The position numbers were made by a program, and so were the translations under genes. Below are positions 14,784 through 36,056 of a stretch of 64,000 bases of DNA, piece after piece. The stretch spans positions 2,073,861 to 2,137,860 of the forward strand of contig CP070691.1 of assembly GCA_020353195.1 (NCBI GenBank), given 5' to 3'. This stretch comes from Phycisphaerales bacterium (lineage in GTDB: Bacteria; Planctomycetota; Phycisphaerae; UBA1845). Each line of letters begins with the position of its first letter. Position 1 is the stretch's first letter. The notes under the pieces are model-generated. The model did not search any database and was not told where the DNA came from. It worked only from the letters and a program-made list of their open reading frames with translations.

Positions 14784-15587
14784 TTGAACGGCAGCAAAGA
14801 CAAGCACGGTCGCCACCGCATCGGCGCGGTTTCGTTTCTGAACTCCAGACCGCTGGTGTACGGACTCCGGGAAAAGGCCGACATCGAGGTGTGCTTCGAC
14901 CTGCCCTCTCGATTGCCGGCCTTGCTGGATGACGGCTGCGTGGACGCGGCCCTGACGCCGGTGGTTGACATGCTGCGCCCCGGTCGGTCGTGGAAGATCG
15001 TCTCGGATGCCTGCATCGGCTGTGACGGCGAGACCATGACCGTGCGCGTGTTCTCACGGACGCCCCCGGACCAGGTGAAACGCATCTGGGCCGACCAGGC
15101 TTCGCATACCTCGGTCGCCCTCGCCCGGCTGATCTGGCAGGAGACGTACGGGCATCCGCTGGACGTGTGCCCCCTGGACGACGCTGCCCGCACGGAAGAT
15201 TGTGACGCAGTGCTGCTGATCGGCGACAAGGTGGTGACGGCCGCCCCGTACGGATTCACGTACCAGACCGATCTCGGCGGTGCCTGGAAGTCGTTGACCG
15301 GCTTGCCGTTCGTGTTTGCCGTCTGGGCAGCCCACGCCCGAACGCCGGTGGGTGCCCTCCCGACCCTGCTGTCGCAAGCCCGGGATCGCGGGGTCGCGCA
15401 CGCGGAGGCCATCGCCGTCCGTGAAGGGCCCGGGCTCGGGTGGCCCCCCGCGGTGGCCCGGACGTATCTGACCCGGAACCTGTCTTACACGCTGGACGGG
15501 CGGCACCGCGACGGCATGCGGGCATTCTTGAGAATGGCGAGTCAGCGCAACATCGCGCCGTCGTACCGGGAGCTCGTGTTCACATGA
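14784..15587 (+). CDS. mqnA: Chorismate dehydratase MqnA
   Basis: A 267-residue protein of the periplasmic-binding-protein fold used as an enzyme in the futalosine route to menaquinone. MqnA dehydrates chorismate to 3-enolpyruvylbenzoate. The opening IGAVSFLNSRPLVYGL, the DLPSRLPALLDDGCVDAALTPV segment and IGDKVV are characteristic of MqnA/MqnD-type proteins. There is no signal peptide, consistent with a cytoplasmic enzyme. Translation probably starts at TTG 14784, because GAAAGGGA sits about 6 bases before it. The stop overlaps the mqnC start (ATGA), and mqnC catalyses a later step, so the pair confirm each other. Confidence 0.9.
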   Translation: MNGSKDKHGRHRIGAVSFLNSRPLVYGLREKADIEVCFDLPSRLPALLDDGCVDAALTPVVDMLRPGRSWKIVSDACIGCDGETMTVRVFSRTPPDQVKRIWADQASHTSVALARLIWQETYGHPLDVCPLDDAARTEDCDAVLLIGDKVVTAAPYGFTYQTDLGGAWKSLTGLPFVFAVWAAHARTPVGALPTLLSQARDRGVAHAEAIAVREGPGLGWPPAVARTYLTRNLSYTLDGRHRDGMRAFLRMASQRNIAPSYRELVFT

Positions 15588-16699
15588 CGACCACGCCCGC
15601 CCCAGCCTGCGATCCGGGGGGCCGGCGAATCACGCAGAGCGAGGCGCTCGAACTCTATCGTCGTTGCTCCGTCCACGAACTGGGGCGGCTGGCCCACGAC
15701 GTGACGATGCGGCTGCACCCCGAGCCGTATCGCACGTACGTCGTCGACCGCAACATCAACTACTCCAACATCTGCACGGCCCGGTGCGCGTTCTGCAACT
15801 TCAAGGTCCTGCCCGGGCGACCGGGTGGGTATGTGCTGAGCTTCGACGAGATCGACCGCAAGATCGAGGAGTTGATCGGGATTGGGGGCACGCAGATCCT
15901 CATGCAAGGCGGGCTCGTACCCTCGGACAGGCTTCCTTTCGACTGGTATCTGCATCTGCTCCGTCACATCAAAACGAAGTTTCCAGCGATCCACGTCCAC
16001 GCGTTCAGCCCCCCGGAGATCTTCGCGTTTCACCGGGTCTTCGACATGCCGGTCAGCGACGTGCTGCTCAGGTTGCAGGAGGCGGGGCTGGACACCATCC
16101 CCGGCGGCGGAGCGGAAATCCTCGTGGATCGGGTCCGAAACAGGATCGGCGTCGGAAAAACGAAAACGGCCGAATACCTTCAGGTGGTGCGTGAAGCGCA
16201 TCGCATCGGAATGCGGACGAGCGCGACGATGATGTTCGGCCACGTCGAGACGCTCTCCGAGCGGGTTGAGCACCTGGCCCGCATTCGCGATCTTCAGGAC
16301 GAGACCGGCGGGGTCACGGCGTTCATCTGCTGGACGTTTCAGCCGGAGAATACGCCGCTGGGGCGGATCCGTCCGTTGCCGGCAGAAGTGCATGAACCGG
16401 ATGGGAAGCGCCTGGCGCTGGCGGGCGCCCACGAGTACCTCAGGACGCTGGCCATTTCGCGCGTCTTTCTCGACAACGTGCCCAACCTTCAGGCGAGCTG
16501 GGTCACACAGGGGCCCCGAATCGGCGAGTTGGCCCTTTTTTTCGGCGCCAACGACATGGGGTCGGTGCTGATGGAAGAGAACGTCGTTTCGGCCGCAGGT
16601 ACTGCTTACTGTTTGACGGAGCGAGAGATACGGAGTTTAATCACCGATGCCGGGTGGGAACCTCGCAAGCGGAACTGCTATTACGAACTGCTTGACTGA
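15584..16699 (+). CDS. mqnC: Cyclic dehypoxanthinyl futalosine synthase MqnC
   Basis: A 371-residue radical SAM enzyme. The cluster motif is CTARCAFCNF, preceded by NINYSN. The segments GGTQILMQGG, IPGGGAEILVDRVR, TSATMMFGHVET and FICWTFQPENTPLG are those that separate MqnC from the related MqnE. The enzyme cyclises dehypoxanthinyl futalosine to its spiro product in menaquinone synthesis. ATG 15584 overlaps the mqnA stop, which fixes the start; the frame is open further upstream but that part is antisense-like noise inside mqnA. The remaining genes of the pathway (mqnB, mqnD, mqnE) are not in the window. Confidence 0.93.
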   Translation: MTTTPAPACDPGGRRITQSEALELYRRCSVHELGRLAHDVTMRLHPEPYRTYVVDRNINYSNICTARCAFCNFKVLPGRPGGYVLSFDEIDRKIEELIGIGGTQILMQGGLVPSDRLPFDWYLHLLRHIKTKFPAIHVHAFSPPEIFAFHRVFDMPVSDVLLRLQEAGLDTIPGGGAEILVDRVRNRIGVGKTKTAEYLQVVREAHRIGMRTSATMMFGHVETLSERVEHLARIRDLQDETGGVTAFICWTFQPENTPLGRIRPLPAEVHEPDGKRLALAGAHEYLRTLAISRVFLDNVPNLQASWVTQGPRIGELALFFGANDMGSVLMEENVVSAAGTAYCLTEREIRSLITDAGWEPRKRNCYYELLD

Positions 16700-19474: not shown

Positions 19475-22213
19475 CTAGTTCTTCTTTCCCCACCAGCCAC
19501 GTTTCGGTTTCGACTTCTCGGACGCTTGCTCCGCCCGAATCTGAGTGAGCAGCTCGCGGTCGGACTTGCCGGGGGCCAACCGCCGGAGGGTCTTGAGCTT
19601 GGCCTGAGTCTCCTCGTCCAGTCCCGGGGGAAGTGGGGACTCGACGCGGGGCGCGGGCTGGGGCTTTGATTGCTGGCCCGGCCTGAACTTGATCGGCTCG
19701 TCCGGATCCTGCGCCGGCTCGCTTCGGGTCGGCGCCTTCTTTGTGGGCTTCTTCGTGCTTGCCTTGACGGGTTTTGGGACTTCCACCTCGATTTTCGGCG
19801 TCTTTGGCCGGGGTACGGTTTTCGCGCGTGCTTTCCCACCAGCGGTGTCCGCTTGCGGCGGCCGCACCGGGGCCGACTCGCCGGGCTTCTTGCCGGTCGC
19901 CGCGCTGCCGCTCCCGGCCAGTGCCCTCTCGCGTTCGTCCAACTGCTTCTGCCGCTCTTCGATCGCCTTCTGTGCCGCTTCGACCTGGGCGGTCAGACTC
20001 GCCTCGGCCTGCTGCTGCCACTCGGTGAACTCCCGCCGCTGCTTCTCGAGCTGCGCCTTTAGCTGATCTAACTCGCGTGCGCGGGCCTGGATCTCGCGCT
20101 GCGAATCGGCGGACGGCGGCGCGGCGTGTTGGGTGCCGGTGGAATCAGGCTGGGGGGCGCCTTGTGCTTCGACGTCAGAAGCCCGGGCGTCGAGTTCAGC
20201 CTTACGGCGGTCGAGTGCCTCGTGCTGAGCGGCCAGGGCCTTCTTCTGGTTTTCCACTTCGCCGCGGAGACGATCCAGTTCCTTGGCGCGCTGGGTTGTT
20301 TCTTGCTCGGTCCGGGTGATCTGCTGGAGACGGTCGTCGAGTTCGTTCTGAAGTTCCTGAGCGCGCTGATGCTGTTCGCTCAGCTCCTGCTCGCGGGTCT
20401 CGGTCTGTTTGATGGTAGCCTGGAGGTTCTCCTCTCGGCTGGCCAGCGCCTGGGCCTGCTGTCCGAGCTCCTTCTGGCGGGTGTTGGCTTCGTCCAGCTG
20501 CATTTGGATCTGCTCGTTTTGCCGCTCGAGTTCGGCCCGTCGGGCTTCGAGTTCTTCGTACTGCTGGCTGAAGCCTGCCCCTTGCTTCTTGCGCTCGAGG
20601 TCCAGCACCGCCCGGTCGCTGGCGATCTCGTTTTCGCGGACGCGGAGCTTCTCTCGCAAGCGATTTACTTCGGCGCTTTGCTCTTCCACTTTCCCCTCGC
20701 GCAGCACGAGTTCCTCGCTGCGGGCGGCCAACGTGCGGTCCAGCTGATCAACCTGCTGTTGTCGTTCGTTCACGCGCGTCTCGGCGGCCTGGACCTGCCG
20801 TTGTAGCTCTTGCCACTCGGCCTGCTTCCGGGTCGCCTCGTCGAGCATCTGTCTGGCTTGGGTCTGTTGCTGTTCCGACTGGGATTGGAGGTCGTCCAGC
20901 TCACGCGCGCGTGCGCCCAGCTTCTCCTGTGTCCGTGACCGATCGTGTTCGAAGGCCTTGACGGAGTCGGCCAGGCTCTTCTCAGCAGAACTGAGCAAAT
21001 CTTCGCGCTCGTTAAGGCGGTCGCCGCGTTCGTTGAGCGCGTCCTCGAGTTCTTCGCACTCGCGGAGCCGGCGGGAGGTTTCCGCCTCCCGTTCTTCCGC
21101 CTTCCGCGCTTTGAGATTGAGCTTCTCCTCTTGTGCGGCCAGGCGCGCGCGGGTGGCTTCCAACTCCTCCGCGTTGCCGGTCAACCCGTGTTCCCGTGCC
21201 GCCAGTTCGTTCTGCCTCTCCTGGACCTCCGCCAGTTGCTGCTGGATCTCGCTGCGCTGGCGGGCGAAGTCGGCCCGGGCCGCATCCAGTTCTTCGTATT
21301 GACGTGCGAAGCCGGCCCCTTGCTGCTGGCGCTCGAGTTCCAGGGCGGAGCGATCGGATTCGATCTGGGCCCGTTTGGCTTCAAGCGACTCGCGCAGCTT
21401 GCGGAGTTCCTTTCCCTGCTCCGCCAGTTGTTGCCGCTGTTCCTCCACCTCTTGCCGGCGGGTCTCCAGTTTCTCCGTGCGCGCGGCGAGCTCTTCGTTT
21501 CGTGCGTTGAACTCGTCGACCAGTTCGGCGCATTTGGTCCGTTCGCCGTCGAGGTTGCGGTCCCTTGCTTCGAGGTCGCGCTGGAGGTGCGACAGTTCCG
21601 CCTCCCGCTGCCGGGCGGCCTCCACGCGTTGCCTGATCACTTGCTTGGCTTCGTCCAGCGAGGCGGCTGTATGGTCGAGCTCTTCCTTCCGCGCCCGTGC
21701 TTCCTCCCATGCCTCGTCGAGCGCAGAACGCCGACTCTCGAACTCGCGAAGCTCGGCGTTGAGTTGCTCGCGATCCCGGCGGAACTGGTCACGCTGCCGC
21801 CGGACGTCCTCGTCGAAGGTCTGGCGGCGGGCAGCGGACTCCTGCTCCTGCTGTTGCAGCGTCGCCTCCCGGTGATCGAGTGTTTCACTTGTGGCTGTGA
21901 GTTCCGCTTCCCGTCGGTCAGCGTGGGCGACCCGCTGTTTGAACTGCTGTTCCGTGGCTTCGAACCTGGCGTGGGTCTCTTCGATCTGGCGCTCGAGTTC
22001 CTGCTGGCGACGGGCGAGGTCCTCCTCGCGTGCCTGCAGCCGGACGGTCTGCTCCTCGAAGCAGGACCGCAACGATTCGGCTTGGCGCTCATGGAGGCTG
22101 ATTCTCTGGGCAAGCTCATCCAGCGCGGCACAGAGTTCGGCGTCCACCGCCGACAGAATCGCTTCCGAGGCCTCGTTGTGTGGTTGCAAGCCCTGTACGG
22201 GTGTGTCAGCCAT
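19475..22213 (-). CDS. Giant coiled-coil protein with proline/lysine-rich C-terminal segment
   Basis: A 912-residue protein, almost entirely Glu/Gln/Arg/Leu-rich heptads from about residue 20 to 710, predicting a rod roughly 100 nm long if fully helical. A segment about 246 residues long is duplicated in frame: the text QGAGFxxQYEEL occurs twice with the same neighbours. The last 170 residues are low in heptads and rich in Lys, Pro and Ala (AKTVPRPKTPKIEVEV), ending with a DREL-containing helix and a basic tail ending WWGKKN. There is no enzymatic motif. ATG 22213 is preferred over GTG 22231. It is divergent from a second, shorter coiled-coil gene heading the SUMF1-GTPase operon. Confidence 0.8.
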   Translation of the reverse strand: MADTPVQGLQPHNEASEAILSAVDAELCAALDELAQRISLHERQAESLRSCFEEQTVRLQAREEDLARRQQELERQIEETHARFEATEQQFKQRVAHADRREAELTATSETLDHREATLQQQEQESAARRQTFDEDVRRQRDQFRRDREQLNAELREFESRRSALDEAWEEARARKEELDHTAASLDEAKQVIRQRVEAARQREAELSHLQRDLEARDRNLDGERTKCAELVDEFNARNEELAARTEKLETRRQEVEEQRQQLAEQGKELRKLRESLEAKRAQIESDRSALELERQQQGAGFARQYEELDAARADFARQRSEIQQQLAEVQERQNELAAREHGLTGNAEELEATRARLAAQEEKLNLKARKAEEREAETSRRLRECEELEDALNERGDRLNEREDLLSSAEKSLADSVKAFEHDRSRTQEKLGARARELDDLQSQSEQQQTQARQMLDEATRKQAEWQELQRQVQAAETRVNERQQQVDQLDRTLAARSEELVLREGKVEEQSAEVNRLREKLRVRENEIASDRAVLDLERKKQGAGFSQQYEELEARRAELERQNEQIQMQLDEANTRQKELGQQAQALASREENLQATIKQTETREQELSEQHQRAQELQNELDDRLQQITRTEQETTQRAKELDRLRGEVENQKKALAAQHEALDRRKAELDARASDVEAQGAPQPDSTGTQHAAPPSADSQREIQARARELDQLKAQLEKQRREFTEWQQQAEASLTAQVEAAQKAIEERQKQLDERERALAGSGSAATGKKPGESAPVRPPQADTAGGKARAKTVPRPKTPKIEVEVPKPVKASTKKPTKKAPTRSEPAQDPDEPIKFRPGQQSKPQPAPRVESPLPPGLDEETQAKLKTLRRLAPGKSDRELLTQIRAEQASEKSKPKRGWWGKKN
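20521..21380 (-). repeat. In-frame internal duplication within the coiled-coil gene
   Basis: Two similar stretches, near 20521-20640 and 21259-21380, lie 738 bases (246 codons) apart in the same frame. Both encode a QGAGF..QYEEL core flanked by DR(A/S)xLxLER and an RQ/QL-rich helix. The match is strong enough to see by eye at the DNA level, suggesting duplication of a coiled-coil unit. Confidence 0.6.
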
Positions 22214-22796: not shown

Positions 22797-23690
22797 ATGA
22801 ACGACCGCAGCGAATTGCCCACTGTGAGCTCCGAATCCGACCGCGTCAAGGCGCTCGGCAACGAAGTGGTGGCGGCCATCCATAACGTTCAGGAGCAGCT
22901 GCAGAAGCGGGCTGCCGCCATGGAGAAGATCAACCATGATCTTCAAGAGCGCCATCATGCGATCGAGCGGATACGGCAGGAACTCGATCAGGAGCGGGAC
23001 GCGTTGGAGCATGAGCGCGAGGAGCAGGCTCGACGGTTCGCCGAACAGCGGCAGGAGCTGATGCAGGAGGAAGAAAGATGCGCTGCGAAGCGGCAGGAGC
23101 TGGAGACGTGGGCGGCAGCACTTGAGCGACGGAATCAGGTGCTCGGAGAGGCGGAAGTCACGTTGCACAGGCTGCAGGACGAAGTGGAACACCAGCGTAT
23201 GGAGCTGGCGTCGCTGCAGTTCGACCTGAGCGATCAGGGATCGCTTGAGTTCACGTCGAAGTCACAGGATAGCAAGCGCAAGCCGGGCGCGGTGGAACGG
23301 GACTCAGGCGACGCTGCGGTGGCAGGGGACCGCAGGGACAGGGAGTTCGACGCCCGCGAGCGGGAGATCGAGGCGGCACGGAGGCAGATAGAAGCTCAGC
23401 GAGCGGAGGTCGACAAAGCCCGCGAGAACGTGACGACCCTGCAGAGTCAGTTGGAGTGTGAGCGGCAGGAGATTGCGGCCCAGCGGGCTGAACTGGCGGA
23501 GCAGATGAGCGTGATCCCGGAGGACGGTTCGGGACCGCCGGAATCGAAGCCAACCGAGGCGCCGCAGGAGCCTCCCACCGCGGAGCCGACCGCGCAGTCG
23601 GGCGAGAAGCCCAAGGAGAGCGGCAAGCTGGTCGACCGGTTCAGGAAGCTGCGTCGCGATGCGAAACGCCGCGCGATCGGCGGCATGTGA
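22797..23690 (+). CDS. Coiled-coil protein, first gene of the SUMF1-GTPase operon
   Basis: A 297-residue protein. Residues 15-145 form a continuous Glu/Gln/Arg/Leu coiled coil, a polar linker follows (about 150-178), and a second coil covers 180-235. A Pro/Glu-rich segment then leads to a basic amphipathic C-terminus (KLVDRFRKLRRDAKRRAIGG). It has no catalytic motif. ATG 22797 follows GTGGTGA closely; the frame is open upstream to 22428 but that part looks non-coding. It shares composition with the divergent 912-residue coil and lies 51 bases before the SUMF1-like gene, so a structural role in the same assembly is plausible but unproven. Confidence 0.75.
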   Translation: MNDRSELPTVSSESDRVKALGNEVVAAIHNVQEQLQKRAAAMEKINHDLQERHHAIERIRQELDQERDALEHEREEQARRFAEQRQELMQEEERCAAKRQELETWAAALERRNQVLGEAEVTLHRLQDEVEHQRMELASLQFDLSDQGSLEFTSKSQDSKRKPGAVERDSGDAAVAGDRRDREFDAREREIEAARRQIEAQRAEVDKARENVTTLQSQLECERQEIAAQRAELAEQMSVIPEDGSGPPESKPTEAPQEPPTAEPTAQSGEKPKESGKLVDRFRKLRRDAKRRAIGGM

Positions 23691-23741
23691 ACCGTGTGAT
23701 AACGAACCGGTCATCGTGGCAAGACACTGGATAGCCGGATT

Positions 23742-24767
23742 ATGCCGTTAAGGATCTTCTCAAAAAGAGGGCGACGGTCGGATCAGCTCGGCAACGGAGC
23801 CGCGACGGGGCGGTCGCCGGCTTCGGCCTCTGCGGCCGTCGCCTACGACGCGGCGCCGCCCGAACCACTCGAAACCGATCCCCTCAGGCAGTTGTGGCAG
23901 CAGGGCCGGTTCGCAGTGATCCTCCGTGAGGCCGACAAATGGCGAAAGCACACCGGCGGTGACGCGATCGTCGGCGCCGCGGCCAGCGCACTCGAGAAGC
24001 GAATGGCCCTCGTGCCCGAGGGAACCGTCACGCTACCGACGACGCTCTCCAGTGAGCCGGGAGCTCCGGAGATTGATGTCGACGTGGAACCCTTCCTGCT
24101 GGCCGCCACCACCGTGAGCAACGCGGAGTTCCAGCGGTTCGTCGACGCGGCGGGATACGACGAACTCGAGCTGTGGCCGAAGGACATTTGGCCGCACCTG
24201 ATCGAGTTTCACGACCAGACCGGTTCGCCCGGCCCCCGCTTCTGGCGACAGAGCCGGCACAGCCGACGTCTGGCCAATCATCCGGTTGTGGGAGTCAGCT
24301 GGTTTGAAGCCCGGGCCTATGCGTTGTGGGCGGGGTTGCGCCTGCCGACGGAGGTGGAATGGCAGATGGCCGCCAGTTGGCACATACGCAGTTCGGCCGA
24401 CGTGTTCCGCCGTTTCCCTTGGGGCGATGCGCTGGACCGCGAGCGTTGCAACCTGTGGCTGTCGGGCATCGGCGAGACGGCGCCCGTGGATGCCTATGCC
24501 AACGGCGCTGCCCCGAACAACGTGTTGCAGTTGGTGGGCAACGTGTGGCAATGGAACTCGTCGGACTTCGAAGTCACCGACGTCGCCGGGCGGGCCGTGC
24601 TGGGAGAAATGCCGATGAAAGGACTGCGGGGCGGTGCCTTCGACACCTACTTCGAAAGTCAAGCGACGAGTGGATTCCGGACCGGCCTGATCGCGCTGGC
24701 CCGGACCCATAACGTCAGTTTCCGCTGTGCTATGGATCTCAAGGACGCAACCTGGCTGCACGAGTAG
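23742..24767 (+). CDS. SUMF1/FGE-sulfatase-fold protein, probably not a formylglycine synthase
   Basis: A 341-residue protein. After a polar 50-residue N-terminus and a short helical part, a SUMF1 fold runs from about 88 to the end: VEPFLLAATTVSNAEFQRFVDAAGY, HPVVGVSWFEARAYALWAGLRLPTEVEWQMA, NVLQLVGNVWQWNSS and SFRCAMDL. True formylglycine-generating enzymes need a cysteine pair shortly before the last strand; here that stretch (ATSGFRTGLIAL) has none, so a binding or modified role is more likely. The SUMF1 fold is often linked to signalling and conflict modules. It is 51 bases after the coiled-coil gene and 28 bases before the GTPase. Confidence 0.8.
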   Translation: MPLRIFSKRGRRSDQLGNGAATGRSPASASAAVAYDAAPPEPLETDPLRQLWQQGRFAVILREADKWRKHTGGDAIVGAAASALEKRMALVPEGTVTLPTTLSSEPGAPEIDVDVEPFLLAATTVSNAEFQRFVDAAGYDELELWPKDIWPHLIEFHDQTGSPGPRFWRQSRHSRRLANHPVVGVSWFEARAYALWAGLRLPTEVEWQMAASWHIRSSADVFRRFPWGDALDRERCNLWLSGIGETAPVDAYANGAAPNNVLQLVGNVWQWNSSDFEVTDVAGRAVLGEMPMKGLRGGAFDTYFESQATSGFRTGLIALARTHNVSFRCAMDLKDATWLHE

Positions 24768-24795
24768 AGGCCCCCACGAACCGCGGACCGGATCG

Positions 24796-25671
24796 ATGAC
24801 CACAGTCCTGGCAGAACGAATCAACCATTGCCTGATTTGCGAGGCGAAGAACCACCCCGAAGCCGTGCTCTGCAGCGATTGCTCGGCTCCGATGGCGCTG
24901 ATTCAGGAGGCCGTGCAGCAGGAGCGCGAACCGTGCATCATCAGCGTTATCGGGGACTCCAACGTTGGAAAGACCGTGTATCTGGGCTTCTTGCTGGATA
25001 TGCTGTCCAAGCGGGCCGGCAATTTCAGCGCCATCCCCAAGGGCGCCTACTCGGTGAACCTCCAACAAGCGGTGATCAACTACCTGTCGCGGCGCATGTT
25101 CCCGCCCAAGACACCGAGCGAAGTGGACCAGTGGAACTGGGCCTATTATCAGGTTGTCCGGCATCAGCGGGGAACGAGATGGTTCGATCTGGTCATGCCC
25201 GATATGGCCGGCGAGGCGCTGGCGGCGGAGGTCGACACGCCGCACTCGTTTCAGGTCATTCACAACCTGCTGGCCAAGAGCGAGGGCTGCATCCTGCTCA
25301 TCGACGCCGCAATGGCCAGCACCGGATCGCCGCAGCCGGATTTCTTCGGCCTGAAGCTCATGAGCTATGTCGACGATATGTTCGCGGTCAAGCGCGAGGA
25401 CAAGATTGACGTGCCGGTGGCAGTCGTGCTCTGCAAAGCCGACTACTGCCCGGAGTCGTTCGACAATCCGCACAAGTTCGCCCAGACCAACCTGAACCGC
25501 CTCTGGAACGTCTGCGAGGCCCGGTTTCGAAACGTCGAGTTCTTTGCGGCCTCGGTTGTCGGGTCGTTGGGATACGGTAGCGACGAAGATAACAACGTGA
25601 TCACCATCCCGTTGCACTGCGCCCCGCGCGGCATTCTGGAGCCGTTCCGATGGCTTCTGAGTCGATTGTAG
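24796..25671 (+). CDS. Zinc-ribbon P-loop GTPase (double-GTPase 2-like)
   Basis: A 291-residue protein. An N-terminal zinc ribbon (C12, C15, C26, C29) is followed by a P-loop GTPase domain: G1 GDSNVGKT at 53-60, G3 DMAG at 136-139, G4 CKAD at 213-216 and a G5-like AAS near 240. The architecture of an N-terminal ribbon, this G1 and a companion of GAP1 type resembles the 'double-GTPase 2' family described in computational surveys of NTP-dependent conflict systems. Only one GTPase domain is visible here. The stop overlaps the start of the GAP1-like gene by 22 bases. No membrane anchor is seen, so the protein is probably cytoplasmic. The family name is from memory of motifs and should be tested by profile search. 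Confidence 0.8.
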   Translation: MTTVLAERINHCLICEAKNHPEAVLCSDCSAPMALIQEAVQQEREPCIISVIGDSNVGKTVYLGFLLDMLSKRAGNFSAIPKGAYSVNLQQAVINYLSRRMFPPKTPSEVDQWNWAYYQVVRHQRGTRWFDLVMPDMAGEALAAEVDTPHSFQVIHNLLAKSEGCILLIDAAMASTGSPQPDFFGLKLMSYVDDMFAVKREDKIDVPVAVVLCKADYCPESFDNPHKFAQTNLNRLWNVCEARFRNVEFFAASVVGSLGYGSDEDNNVITIPLHCAPRGILEPFRWLLSRL

Positions 25672-27089
25672 TGGACCGGTCGCCCGCTCCGGACGGCCGG
25701 ACCTCAACGGTCACATGCGATCAAGCGATCTACTCGTCCTTGCGGACTCTGGTCGGCCAGGGCTACCAGATCATCGCCGCGAGCCCGGGCCTGACCGCAA
25801 CCGAGAAGAAGGAGATCACCAGGCGCAGCCCGTCGCACGGCGGGTTGTGTCAGGACGGACCCGAGGCGGCGGCGGTGGGGTTCTACAAACTCAGCACGGG
25901 GCGCCTGGCCGTCGCCTTCAGTTGCGACGGCGGTGCGGAGCACACCGGCAGGGGCGTTCGGCGGATCTATACGCACGTCACCGTGTTGCAGGCCGACGAC
26001 TTCGAAAAGTTCGGGTTCAATCCTTCCAACGTGCTCATTGCCGTCGACCGGGTCGGCGGGTTGGAGGTTCGGCTCGACCCGCCCCGGCGGCTCGATCCGC
26101 TCACCCTGCAACCGCTCGACCGCTTTAACCGCGAACGAGCGGCCGCGGCCGTCGGGCGTTTCGGGGCGCCATGGATAACGTATGCCCTGTCGCTGGTGTT
26201 GCGACACATGCGGCTCGTGGTGAGTGGAGACCTCGACCCCGGGGAATGTATGGAGGCGATCCTGTTGGGCGTGCCCGGGCCTCTTCGAGCGGACGTGTCG
26301 TTTTCGGCCGGCCTGCGGTTCTCGGTGGGGCGACCCTACGCGGTCACCGTGGTCGCCGGGAATCCGGAGAAGACCCGCCGCCTGGTCCGAGGCCAACGTC
26401 TGGAGTACCTGGAGCCCGACACCGAAACGCCCGACCCGCCGGACACGCCGTGGCTTCGCATGGTGAGACGGCGGTACGAGAAAGGCCTATTCGACGCCGT
26501 CGCCGAAACCGCCGCGCGGCCCATTGACGACTGCTCTGACGCCGGTTTGGACCGGATCGGCCGCACATGCAACAACATGGACGACGCCAGGGAGGCTGAC
26601 ACGCGCCAGTTGTTGCACCTGGCCGGCGACCATCTGGAGGCCGAAGCTGCCAATGACTTCGAGGCGAGTTTGAGCGTGAGACTGCTGCGGGTCGTCCAGT
26701 CACAACTGTGCAATCGCCTTACGAGCGAGCCCGACGTTGACGCGCACTGGCCCGAGTTGTTGAGCTTGCTGCGCCGGTCGCGCCGGGGTGCTGATTTCGC
26801 CCTGCCCGCTGTCGGCGCTGCCGTCGAGCGCCTGGCCCAGACGGCGCCGGTTCGGGCGGCGGAGCACATCCTGGAGGCTGTCCGCACCGTGCCCGGCGCG
26901 AACGTCGCGGAGCGGTTGCAGCCGTCGTTGACGGTCGTTCTGGAGAGCTTCCGCCCGTGGCTGGCGCACGCGACGGCGGACAGGCTGGACCGGGCCAAGT
27001 CGGTTCTCAACGAATGGCAGTTCAAGCTTCCTCGGCAAAGCGCCCTCAACAGCCTTCTGGCGCAGATTGAACGCCGCCAGGCGGAGTAG
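25650..27089 (+). CDS. GTPase-associated protein 1 (GAP1-N)-like
   Basis: A 479-residue protein. The N-terminal part reads AIYSSLRTLVGQGYQIIAASPGL, then EITRRSPSHGGL, a GFYKLSTGRLAVAF strand and a YTHVTVL strand, which resemble the GAP1-N domain of GTPase-associated proteins. The middle contains FSAGLRFSVGRPYAVTVV, and the C-terminal 150 residues are helical and alanine/arginine-rich. No catalytic motif is recognised. In known systems this protein is encoded beside a GTPase, as here, with a 22-base overlap. The ATG at 25650 has a GGAG about 9 bases upstream. The assignment combines text resemblance and context, so it is only moderately secure. Confidence 0.65.
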   Translation: MASESIVVDRSPAPDGRTSTVTCDQAIYSSLRTLVGQGYQIIAASPGLTATEKKEITRRSPSHGGLCQDGPEAAAVGFYKLSTGRLAVAFSCDGGAEHTGRGVRRIYTHVTVLQADDFEKFGFNPSNVLIAVDRVGGLEVRLDPPRRLDPLTLQPLDRFNRERAAAAVGRFGAPWITYALSLVLRHMRLVVSGDLDPGECMEAILLGVPGPLRADVSFSAGLRFSVGRPYAVTVVAGNPEKTRRLVRGQRLEYLEPDTETPDPPDTPWLRMVRRRYEKGLFDAVAETAARPIDDCSDAGLDRIGRTCNNMDDAREADTRQLLHLAGDHLEAEAANDFEASLSVRLLRVVQSQLCNRLTSEPDVDAHWPELLSLLRRSRRGADFALPAVGAAVERLAQTAPVRAAEHILEAVRTVPGANVAERLQPSLTVVLESFRPWLAHATADRLDRAKSVLNEWQFKLPRQSALNSLLAQIERRQAE

Positions 27090-32970: not shown

Positions 32971-33552
32971 CTACGTAAGGTGCCTCGAGACCAGCTTGTT
33001 CATTTCGAACATGCTGACCTGGGACTTACCTCTGAAGACGGCCCTGAGGTTATCGTCGGCGTTGATCATCCGGCGGTTCGTCGCGTCCTGCAGGCCGTGC
33101 TTGCGAATGTAGGCCCACAGCTTCTTCACCACGCCCGAGCGGGGCAGCGGTTTGCTGCCGATGACCGCCTGCAGTGCAGGTGATGCGGTAAGCGGTCTCA
33201 TGAACGCCGCGCTGGCCTTGCGTTTCTTCTTCTTTTTGGCTTTCTTCTTCGGCGCCTTCTTTTTCTTCTTGACGGCCTTCTTCTTTTTCCTCTTGACGGC
33301 CTTCTTCTTTTTCCTCTTGACGGCTTTCTTCTTCTTCCTCTTGACGGCCTTCTTTTTCCTCTTGGCGGCCTTCTTCCTCTTGGCGCCCTTCTTCTTCCTC
33401 TTCACGGCCCTCTTCTTCCTGGCGCCCTTCTTCTTTCGTCTGGCCGTCTTCTTCTTCGCTGCCTTCTTCTTCCTCTTGACGGCTTTCTTCCTCTTTGCTC
33501 CCTTCTTCTTCCTCACGCTCTTCTTCTTTGCTTTCCTCTTCTTCTTAGCCAT
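32971..33552 (-). CDS. SWIB/MDM2-domain protein with long histone H1-like lysine tail
   Basis: A 193-residue protein. Residues 2-113 are almost only Lys, Arg and Ala (units such as KRKKKKAV repeated), a tail like that of histone H1 or bacterial Hc-type proteins and able to bind DNA. Residues 115-193 form a SWIB/MDM2 domain (FMRPLTASPALQAVIGS, VVKKLWAYIRKHGLQD, RMINADDNLRAVF, VSMFEMNKLVSRHL). SWIB domains occur in eukaryotic chromatin remodellers and in Chlamydia and related bacteria. The combination suggests a nucleoid or chromatin-compacting protein. ATG 33552 follows AAAAGGAGAATGCGCC, a strong ribosome binding site, so the longer frame to 33744 is not used. Confidence 0.88.
   Translation of the reverse strand: MAKKKRKAKKKSVRKKKGAKRKKAVKRKKKAAKKKTARRKKKGARKKRAVKRKKKGAKRKKAAKRKKKAVKRKKKKAVKRKKKKAVKRKKKKAVKKKKKAPKKKAKKKKKRKASAAFMRPLTASPALQAVIGSKPLPRSGVVKKLWAYIRKHGLQDATNRRMINADDNLRAVFRGKSQVSMFEMNKLVSRHLT
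33214..33549 (-). repeat. Low-complexity lysine-codon repeats in the SWIB gene
   Basis: Tandem, imperfect units of about 24-27 bases encoding KRKKKKAV-type segments; at least three adjacent copies near 33270-33350 are nearly identical. Such tracts change length easily by slippage, so tail length may vary between strains. Confidence 0.7.
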
Positions 33553-33756
33553 GGCGCATTCTCCTTTTGTACTGTAGGCCTGTCCGAGTTTCGATAGCCT
33601 CTCGCCCCAAGCCTGCACGCGGGTAATTCTCCCCGCTTGTGCCGGTCTTTGCCAGAAGATTTCAGAAGAAATCACACAGGTTTTTTCTCGCCGGAGCAGG
33701 GGGCCGCCGGCCGGCTGACCGCGCTGCCGGCCGACTCCCCGCACGTTTGTCGCCTG

Positions 33757-35084: not shown

Positions 35085-36056
35085 CTACTTGGACGCTGTG
35101 CGGAGCGCCAGGCCGAGTTCAGACATCCGCCGCTTGATCTCGTTCAATGAGGTTTGTCCGAAGTTCTTGATGGACAACAGCTCCTGCTCCGACCGCGACG
35201 CGAGCTCTCCCAGCGTGGTGATTCCCAGCCGCTGCAGGCACTTCCTCGATCGGGCCGACAGCTCCAGCTCCGTAACGGACCGGCTGAGGGTGTCGGGATC
35301 ACCGGTGCTCGCCGCCGGTTTCGGCAGCTTCAGCAACTCGCCCTGCGGCTCTTCCAGGAGTTGCCCGAGCCGCAGCCGCTTCTGCTTGAGCATGAGCTTG
35401 ATCTCGTTCAGCGACGTTTCGCCGAAGTTCTTGTAGGCCAGCAGCTCGGGCTCCGTGATCTTCAGCAGATCACCCAGCGTATGGATGTTCATCTGCTTCA
35501 GGCAGTTCCGGCTGCGGACGCTGAGCTCGAAGTCGCTGACCGGTGTATCGAGCACCGCGTTATGTTCCTTGCGGGCCCGTTCCATCTCCTCGTCGTAGTA
35601 CATGTCCTGGGCGGACTGGATATCACGCAGAAACAGCCGGGCCCGTGCGTGGTTCGGGTATTCCGCCAGCACACGCTCGAGGCAGGCTTCGGCGCCCGCG
35701 TATTCGCCGTCATCTTCGTACAGGACCGCCAGGTTGATCAGTGCATTGACCGGTGCAGGCGTCTCCCTGGTGCACTCCTCGTACAACTCGATGGCTCGCT
35801 CGGCGTCACCGCGAAGGTCGAGCAGGTACGCCAAGCGGAACTTCGCCGTGGCATGGCTGCAATCGATCTCGAGGGATTCCTCGTACAGGTCGACAGCCTT
35901 CTCGAACTCGTGGGCCTTCTCGGCCAGCAGCGCCTTGAGATAGAGTTCTTCGGCCCGGTCCTCGTCCGTGATGGCGGCCTGGTCGAGCCGCTTGGCTGCC
36001 TCGTCCAGCTCCCCCGTCTCGATCAACGTCGCCACCTCGTTCAAATCGCTGTTCAT
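35085..36056 (-). CDS. TPR protein with two RNA-polymerase alpha-CTD modules
   Basis: A 323-residue protein. Residues 5-150 are about four TPR repeats. Residues 170-230 and 258-318 are two copies of the RNA polymerase alpha C-terminal domain: DFELSVRSRNCLKQM ... TLGDLL ... NFGETSLNEIK, and the similar ELELSARSRKCLQRL ... TLGEL ... NFGQTSLNEIK. In E. coli alpha the equivalent VRSANCL contains the arginine (R265) that contacts UP-element DNA; the arginine is kept in both copies, the asparagine only in the first. The rest of alpha is missing, so this is a DNA- or activator-binding scaffold rather than a polymerase subunit. GAGGCGAG lies before the ATG. Confidence 0.9.
   Translation of the reverse strand: MNSDLNEVATLIETGELDEAAKRLDQAAITDEDRAEELYLKALLAEKAHEFEKAVDLYEESLEIDCSHATAKFRLAYLLDLRGDAERAIELYEECTRETPAPVNALINLAVLYEDDGEYAGAEACLERVLAEYPNHARARLFLRDIQSAQDMYYDEEMERARKEHNAVLDTPVSDFELSVRSRNCLKQMNIHTLGDLLKITEPELLAYKNFGETSLNEIKLMLKQKRLRLGQLLEEPQGELLKLPKPAASTGDPDTLSRSVTELELSARSRKCLQRLGITTLGELASRSEQELLSIKNFGQTSLNEIKRRMSELGLALRTASK

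Follow-up and report, generated by a model that had tools for sequence, protein, structure and literature searches.

We analyzed a 64,000-nucleotide stretch of a Phycisphaerales bacterium genome (assembly GCA_020353195.1, contig CP070691.1, positions 2,073,861 to 2,137,860), hereafter the window, and found in it a unit of five genes encoding a zinc-ribbon GTPase, the protein GAP1, an FGS protein and two coiled-coil proteins, CCA and CCB. Our preferred reading, to which we assign a probability of about 0.45, is that the unit is a GTPase-switch module with a core function in its host family. GAP1, predicted to have a DENN-like fold, would act as a GTPase-activating protein (GAP), FGS as a non-catalytic adaptor, and the coiled-coil proteins as scaffolds.

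Four of the genes lie in tandem on the plus strand, with intergenic gaps of 51 and 28 bases and then an overlap of 22 bases, exactly as a first-pass annotation of this DNA had described. That annotation took the four as the complete operon; their placement was correct, but the unit reaches further, since on sequence comparison the divergent CCA gene on the minus strand belongs to it. Neither this fifth gene nor the DENN-like fold of GAP1 was part of that annotation. The window genome, a single 3.8-Mb contig, holds one copy of GAP1 and one of the GTPase. The 22-base overlap was found again, at exactly this length, in about 18 other loci, which suggests translational coupling of the GTPase and GAP1. 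The features are as follows.

19475..22213, minus strand: CCA, long coiled-coil-like protein of 912 amino acids, divergent from the operon; fifth module member
19478..19642, minus strand: conserved C-terminal tail of CCA (LDEETQAKLKTLRRLAPGKSDRELL...KRGWWGKKN), from tail comparison and a hidden Markov model (HMM)
22797..23690, plus strand: CCB, charged helical/coiled-coil protein of 297 amino acids, from its open reading frame (ORF)
23625..23687, plus strand: conserved C-terminal tail of CCB (RFRKLRRDAKRRAIG), from a tail HMM
23742..24767, plus strand: FGS, SUMF1/FGE-like fold protein of 341 amino acids (PF03781), predicted to be catalytically inactive
24796..25671, plus strand: DO-GTPase of 291 amino acids with an N-terminal zinc ribbon and a Ras-like G domain (PF19975, PF19993)
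24829..24882, plus strand: zinc-ribbon cysteines C12, C15, C26, and C29 of the GTPase, invariant in 39 sequences
24952..24975, plus strand: G1 P-loop of the GTPase, GDSNVGKT, residues 53-60, from the alignment of homologues
25201..25215, plus strand: G3 of the GTPase, DMAGE, residues 136-140, from the motif
25650..25671, plus strand: 22-base overlap of the GTPase and GAP1 reading frames, with putative translational coupling
25650..27089, plus strand: GAP1, 479 amino acids, predicted DENN-like fold (PF20013 and model)
25701..26054, plus strand: longin-like domain of GAP1, about residues 18-135, from the model; the most conserved part of GAP1
25950..25952, plus strand: codon of GAP1 Arg101, candidate arginine finger in the b4-b5 loop, from invariance and the model
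26100..26414, plus strand: middle alpha/beta domain of GAP1, about residues 151-255, five strands, cDENN-like, from the model and structure matches
26427..27086, plus strand: helical C-terminal region of GAP1, from the model, with only generic helical-repeat matches

Make-up and inheritance of the unit

The GTPase was searched for in 120 relatives, including 50 other genomes of the window's family and 63 other genomes of its order, and was detected in 77. Within the family it was present in 46 of the 50 genomes, almost always as a single copy, compared with 47 for rpoB, which served as the yardstick; three of the four family genomes without it are 63, 67, and 83% complete. GTPases from the order were about 52-70% identical to the window protein, and the one from a relative in the same genus, a Phycisphaerae metagenome-assembled genome, was 87% identical. 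The corresponding values among the order loci were 26-40% for GAP1 (53% in the same genus) and mostly 24-41% for the coiled-coil proteins.

Examination of 45 order-level GTPase loci, two pairs of which are one record seen twice, revealed that the order CCB-FGS-GTPase-GAP1 recurs while the flanking genes vary. Because FGS adjoins the GTPase in 44 of the 45 loci, the clustering is not due to chance; most loci also have a coiled coil and GAP1, and CCB is clustered in 39. The neighborhood is thus conserved, and the SUMF1-fold protein and dedicated coiled coils with which the first-pass annotation had extended the GTPase/GAP1 pair are real and are conserved together with it. In one locus (L080), GAP1 is directly followed by a second FGS-like ORF of 460 amino acids, some 2 kb past the GTPase.

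Beyond the order, one large family has the GTPase in 26 of 60 genomes. Seventeen of 24 matches at the level of the phylum were strong (E 3e-63 or better), and these came from six families outside the window's class. Nearly all loci outside the class keep the order coiled coil-FGS-GTPase, with GAP1 next in most of them. GAP1 was not recognized in four loci outside the class. A conserved 118-residue ORF lies downstream of the GTPase in L120, L122, and L123, where GAP1 went unrecognized.

CCA was connected to the unit through its C-terminus. The tail resembles the C-terminus of a shorter, co-oriented ORF that lies directly upstream of CCB in other families. An HMM trained on the tails of 20 divergent long-form proteins was run against 2167 ORF C-termini, and its top 21 matches were all ORFs directly upstream of CCB, with E values of 5e-16 to 1e-3 and the next match at 0.16. 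On this result CCA was counted in 41 of the 45 loci; most members of the window's family have it in reversed orientation and in a longer form. The CCA sequence shows heptad periodicity (p=0.006). Five residues of the CCB tail (K284, R287, D288, A289, and R291) do not vary among 39 sequences whose identity to the window protein is otherwise only 19-36%, and when the CCB-tail HMM was applied to distant planctomycete families, the ORF just upstream of FGS gave the top 10 of 714 C-termini. Matches of the coiled coils to JetC/LmuB in PADLOC and to SMC/HmpF in NCBIfam were rejected as products of coiled-coil composition. Some variants of CCA have one or two N-terminal FHA domains (L107:10919-12469, L051:1374-5228), an arrangement reminiscent of type VI secretion, where TagF, itself a weak fold match to GAP1 (see below), is paired with Fha.

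Inheritance was assessed in 37 genomes by comparing trees of the GTPase, FGS, and GAP1 with that of rpoB, using Mantel correlations and shared splits, each with a null. The Mantel r against rpoB was 0.61 for the GTPase, 0.70 for FGS, and 0.67 for GAP1, where the null maxima were 0.19-0.26, and the cassette trees shared 13-14 of 34 splits with rpoB against a null maximum of 2-3. The cassette genes agreed more closely among themselves (GTPase-FGS 0.84, GTPase-GAP1 0.86). Four to six strong splits in the cassette trees contradict rpoB, and the window's family is not monophyletic for the cassette, which indicates that transfer of the whole cassette happens. Three genomes of the family (G005, G042, and G007) have the cassette type of other families, probably because a transferred cassette replaced the original one in its entirety. 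The unit is mostly inherited vertically within the host family and is sometimes transferred whole.

Predicted properties of the GTPase, GAP1, and FGS

The GTPase matched DO-GTPase1 (PF19975) with 45.0 bits and DO-GTPase2 (PF19993) with 37.5 bits, each against a cut-off of 27; the double-GTPase 2 family suggested by the first-pass annotation is therefore reached, but DO-GTPase1 scores higher. The zinc ribbon (C12xxC15...C26xxC29) and the G1 (GDSNVGKT), G3 (DMAGE), and G4 (CKAD, residues 213-216) motifs are present as annotated. Across 39 homologues the four ribbon cysteines are invariant and the key G1, G3, and G4 residues invariant or nearly so; the P-loop, D136, E140, K214, and D216 are conserved, with D136 and E140 invariant. 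Judged by the motif, E140 appears to occupy the place of the catalytic glutamine of Ras-type GTPases, and it would be equivalent to the conserved glutamate at Walker B/G3 of the DO-GTPases (PMC7159879). The GTPase model, with a predicted local distance difference test score (pLDDT) of 84.7, matches the G domains of Ras, Arl, and Rag proteins with Z about 14-15, and also MglA, while Foldseek against the PDB places it only as a general Ras/EF-Tu-like G domain.

The 479-residue protein, which had been suspected to be GAP1-like, matched GAP1-N2 (PF20013) with 47.5 bits, above the curated cut-off of 24, and 36 of 36 homologues matched this family too. GAP1-M was weakly seen in two of the 36 (best E 0.036) and not in the window protein. 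An AlphaFold2 model made with the alignment of the 36 homologues had a mean pLDDT of 94.1 and a predicted template modeling score of 0.89. Its N-terminal elements, b1 (21-33), b2 (36-44), a1 (50-59), b3 (74-80), b4 (86-96), b5 (104-113), a2 (115-121), and a3 (125-134), give the longin order b-b-a-b-b-b-a-a, followed by a five-strand alpha/beta domain and then helices. The published DENN layout is a longin domain, a five-stranded alpha/beta DENN domain and an all-helical d-DENN domain (PMC3521125), and the order of secondary structure in GAP1 agrees with it.

The GAP1 model was then compared with 350,542 PDB chains using Foldseek. The top six matches all belong to the DENN superfamily, the best being DENND1A with Rab35 (E 2.3e-4), along with DENND1B (1.9e-3 and 6.4e-3), DENND10 (2.8e-3), FLCN/FNIP2 (2.8e-3), and the active FLCN GAP complex (4.2e-3); the seventh was TagF (E 0.05). 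Among the best 50 entries obtained with VIA, the alignments of DENND1A (Z 9.5, 247 residues) and DENND1B (Z 9.4, 246 residues) covered approximately residues 18-306 of the model; DENND10 scored Z 8.8, and a Lokiarchaeal longin domain scored Z 8.2 across residues 18-156. Helical repeats matched to the C-terminal half of GAP1 made up most of the remaining rows. Neither a roadblock protein nor TagF stood among these 50, an absence that carries no weight. The model thus predicts a DENN-like fold for GAP1. Sequence searches of the PDB with the GAP1 and GTPase profiles gave nothing significant, and helical matches to GGA1 at E 0.035 were not trusted.

The b4-b5 loop of GAP1 comprises residues 97-103 and contains R101. 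This residue is invariant in 36 of 36 order-level proteins and likewise, throughout the phylum, in all GAP1-N2 proteins that were properly extracted, long canonical ones included (29 loci; the short spurious ORFs of L158, L162, L164, L165, L167, and L182 were ignored), while R105 is invariant in the order only. Mean conservation is highest in the longin-like domain, at 0.60; the two remaining parts of GAP1 have means of 0.36 and 0.27. A preprint proposes that monomeric DENN proteins are GAPs when their longin surface is conserved and bears an arginine between b4 and b5, and it also reports Avl9 to be an Arf-GAP needing R116 (PMC12803157); the catalytic Arg147 of SMCR8 likewise comes from a longin domain (PMC8213707). 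Since the invariant residues were listed before we came upon the b4-b5 criterion, the placement of Arg101 was not fitted to it. In the model, R101 is a candidate arginine finger at the same position as in the eukaryotic DENN GAPs.

FGS matched FGE-sulfatase (PF03781) with 122.7 bits, has the FGE fold, and strongly matches FGE and EgtB chains; NCBIfam matches to EgtB and GldK lay far below cut-off and were rejected. It is the second most conserved protein of the unit, with 47-75% identity across the order (among the order loci, 46-62% to the window protein and 74% in the same genus) and 43 invariant columns. The copper-site cysteines of FGE are unmatched in the profile alignment, the first falling within a stretch that is absent from FGS and the second having no match; of the cysteines in FGS, C236 alone never varies and C329 hardly does. 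We infer from these sequence features that FGS is a non-catalytic binding or adaptor protein whose enzyme activity has probably been lost. The FGS alignment contains no hypervariable stretch of the kind made by a diversity-generating retroelement (DGR); entropy peaks in a 15-residue stretch that begins with residue 95 and thus at the N-terminal edge, and residues 301-320 are among the more conserved. Transmembrane segments were predicted at the N-terminus of FGS in 12 of 16 distant homologues.

Proposed mechanism and its alternatives

We infer GAP activity, docking through the tails, a membrane site, and a scaffold output for the module, arranged as follows. The zinc-ribbon Ras-like GTPase would be the switch and GAP1 its GTPase-activating protein, offering the invariant Arg101 of its longin-like domain to the nucleotide site. 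FGS would serve as an adaptor with an FGE fold but no catalytic activity, anchored in the membrane in distant relatives, and CCA and CCB as scaffolds or tethers that dock into the complex via their conserved C-terminal tails. The nucleotide state of the GTPase would then govern whether a coiled-coil structure assembles on the cytoplasmic side of the cell membrane.

Several observations weigh against this reading. Outside the host family the unit is patchy, with the GTPase in 28 of 63 other genomes of the order and 24 of 392 genomes of the phylum, and such a presence suits an accessory function equally well. The heptad test for CCB was weak (p=0.076), and none of the 44 order-level FGS proteins has a predicted membrane segment. 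Whole-chain template modeling scores of GAP1 against DENN proteins were low, 0.16-0.37 in the Foldseek top six, the VIA root-mean-square deviations were 5-6 A, and Pfam sequence profiles matched no DENN family in any of the 36 GAP1 proteins. The likeness is therefore at the level of the fold and could be convergent, and with no profile match GAP1 is called DENN-like rather than filed as a member of the DENN family. TagF, bacterial as well, is a weaker match, so proteins other than GTPase regulators may share the fold.

The unit could instead be a conflict (anti-phage) system in which GAP1 senses an invader, the GTPase sets the threshold, and FGS and the coiled coils contain or kill. GAP1-N2 loci have been so classed, with a mention of FGS effectors in planctomycetes (PMC7159879), and the patchiness outside the family, the transfers of whole cassettes, and the fast evolution of GAP1 and the coiled coils all fit. 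Presence in 46 of 50 family genomes, almost always as one copy and close to the 47 of rpoB, does not, and neither does the mostly vertical inheritance (Mantel 0.61-0.70 against a null maximum of 0.26). The supposed effector FGS is conserved and without a hypervariable stretch, and as it is not a variable effector we do not class the unit among conflict systems. PADLOC gave no defense match for FGS, the GTPase, or GAP1, and no convincing match anywhere in the unit and the ten neighbors scanned, where only coiled-coil and TPR/alpha C-terminal domain look-alikes appeared. The first-pass annotation was right about the DO-GTPase and GAP1-N2 families, but its conflict-system reading is weakened: in the host family the GTPase is near-universal, single copy, and for the most part inherited vertically, and FGS is conserved. 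We consider a conflict system unlikely and favor a core cellular role in this family because of a prevalence near that of rpoB, mostly single copies, mostly vertical inheritance, a conserved FGS, and no convincing defense neighbors.

It is also rather unlikely that the resemblance to DENN proteins is a coincidence of a common longin and alpha/beta layout, GAP1 being in that case a non-catalytic binding regulator like TagF. The weak match of the model to TagF points this way, as does the lack of a sequence link between GAP1 and DENN proteins; some CCA proteins carry FHA domains, and TagF is reported to bind an FHA protein (PMC5995506). The E value of DENND1A is, however, two orders of magnitude better than that of TagF, and the invariant arginine sits at the GAP position.

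As the best structural matches are exchange factor (GEF) domains, those of DENND1A and DENND1B with Rab35, GAP1 might switch the GTPase on, as DENND1B does with Rab35, rather than off. Conservation in GAP1 is nevertheless concentrated on the longin domain around R101 and not on the alpha/beta domain, a pattern that marks GAPs according to PMC12803157. We regard the exchange-factor role as improbable and retain that of a GAP.

That FGS is an active enzyme modifying another member of the unit by formylglycine or sulfoxide-type chemistry is hardly credible despite its strong conservation and strong match to FGE and EgtB chains, given the unmatched copper-site cysteines, the invariance of C236 alone, with C329 close to it, and an EgtB match that covers the FGE-like domain and not the N-terminal domain in which the iron ligands of EgtB are located.

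Other genes near the unit were noted. In nine loci of one family (L108-L116, f76), a FliM-like flagellar switch gene, identified by eye, is convergent to the cassette. In the window, adjoining MqnA-like (VitK2_biosynth) and MqnC-like radical SAM genes, of the futalosine route to menaquinone, lie at 14784-16699 on the plus strand. On the minus strand, 32971-33744 encodes a C-terminal SWIB/MDM2 domain joined to very lysine-rich, histone H1-like repeats, and 35085-36056 encodes TPR repeats followed by two RNA polymerase alpha C-terminal domains, the source of a PADLOC match to PglW.

Relation to known systems

The first-pass annotation ranked the operon as a candidate undescribed system, but its core had already been published. 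DO-GTPase/GAP1-N2 loci were classed as conflict systems enriched in multicellular bacteria by Kaur, Burroughs, Iyer, and Aravind in 2020, who in one sentence mention planctomycete GAP1-N2 systems with FGS domain effectors (PMC7159879, section 29); a DO-GTPase protein has also been mentioned in a membrane-stress context (PMC11237479). What is new is the five-gene unit, its family-wide, core-like inheritance, and the predicted DENN-like GAP1 with Arg101. Like the published systems, the window has a zinc-ribbon DO-GTPase, a GAP1-N2 GAP1 directly downstream, and FGS in the operon. It differs in having two tail-tagged coiled-coil proteins as constant members, both of which, by sequence comparison, are new relative to those systems in their conserved C-terminal tails. 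FGS is conserved rather than variable, the unit is inherited family-wide in single copy, and GAP1 is short with GAP1-M unrecognized. The FNIII-repeat protein usual in the DO-GTPase/GAP1-N2 subtype was not found among cassette members or the neighbors scanned, distant loci of the genome not having been sought. The terms DENN, longin, and roadblock are absent from PMC7159879; an earlier report of the DENN likeness is possible, as subscription journals and preprints were thinly covered by our search.

Other bacterial systems share parts of this arrangement. FGS has the PF03781 fold in common with FGE/EgtB fold proteins and lacks the FGE catalytic cysteines. TagF of type VI secretion is a weak fold match to GAP1 and has a reported FHA partner, as some CCA proteins have FHA domains; no type VI genes were seen among the neighbors scanned. 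The MglA-MglB pair is likewise a bacterial Ras-like switch with a dedicated regulator, and the fold of the window GTPase matches MglA. Unlike the roadblock dimer of MglB, which was not compared directly, the GAP1 model is longin/DENN-like with an alpha/beta domain, and the window unit adds FGS and two coiled coils. The roadblock is a circular permutation of the longin domain (PMC3521125).

An earlier account knew the DENN and d-DENN domains from the DENN module alone and traced that module to eukaryotes (PMC3521125). GAP1 may be true bacterial kin of that module, in which case the planctomycete DO-GTPase-GAP1 pairs would be small-GTPase/DENN-GAP switches controlling membrane coiled-coil tethers, and DENN machinery would not be confined to eukaryotes; we think this doubtful. 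A widely distributed bacterial GAP1 family with the DENN-like fold and the GAP arginine would be a eukaryotic-type GTPase regulator in a phylum long discussed for its internal membranes. The conflict-system prediction would then reduce to simple biochemistry, GTP hydrolysis with and without R101, and the planctomycete version would shift from presumed immunity toward core cell biology. Eukaryotic DENN GAPs (Avl9 and DENND6A; PMC12803157) and longin GAPs (FLCN-FNIP and C9orf72-SMCR8) share with GAP1 the predicted layout of a longin domain, a five-stranded alpha/beta domain, and helices, an invariant arginine between longin b4 and b5, and a small GTPase partner. GAP1 differs from the eukaryotic DENN GAPs in being bacterial, in lacking a sequence match, and in a C-terminus of generic helical repeats, and the window GTPase differs from those of the eukaryotic systems in having a zinc ribbon and a glutamate for the catalytic glutamine.

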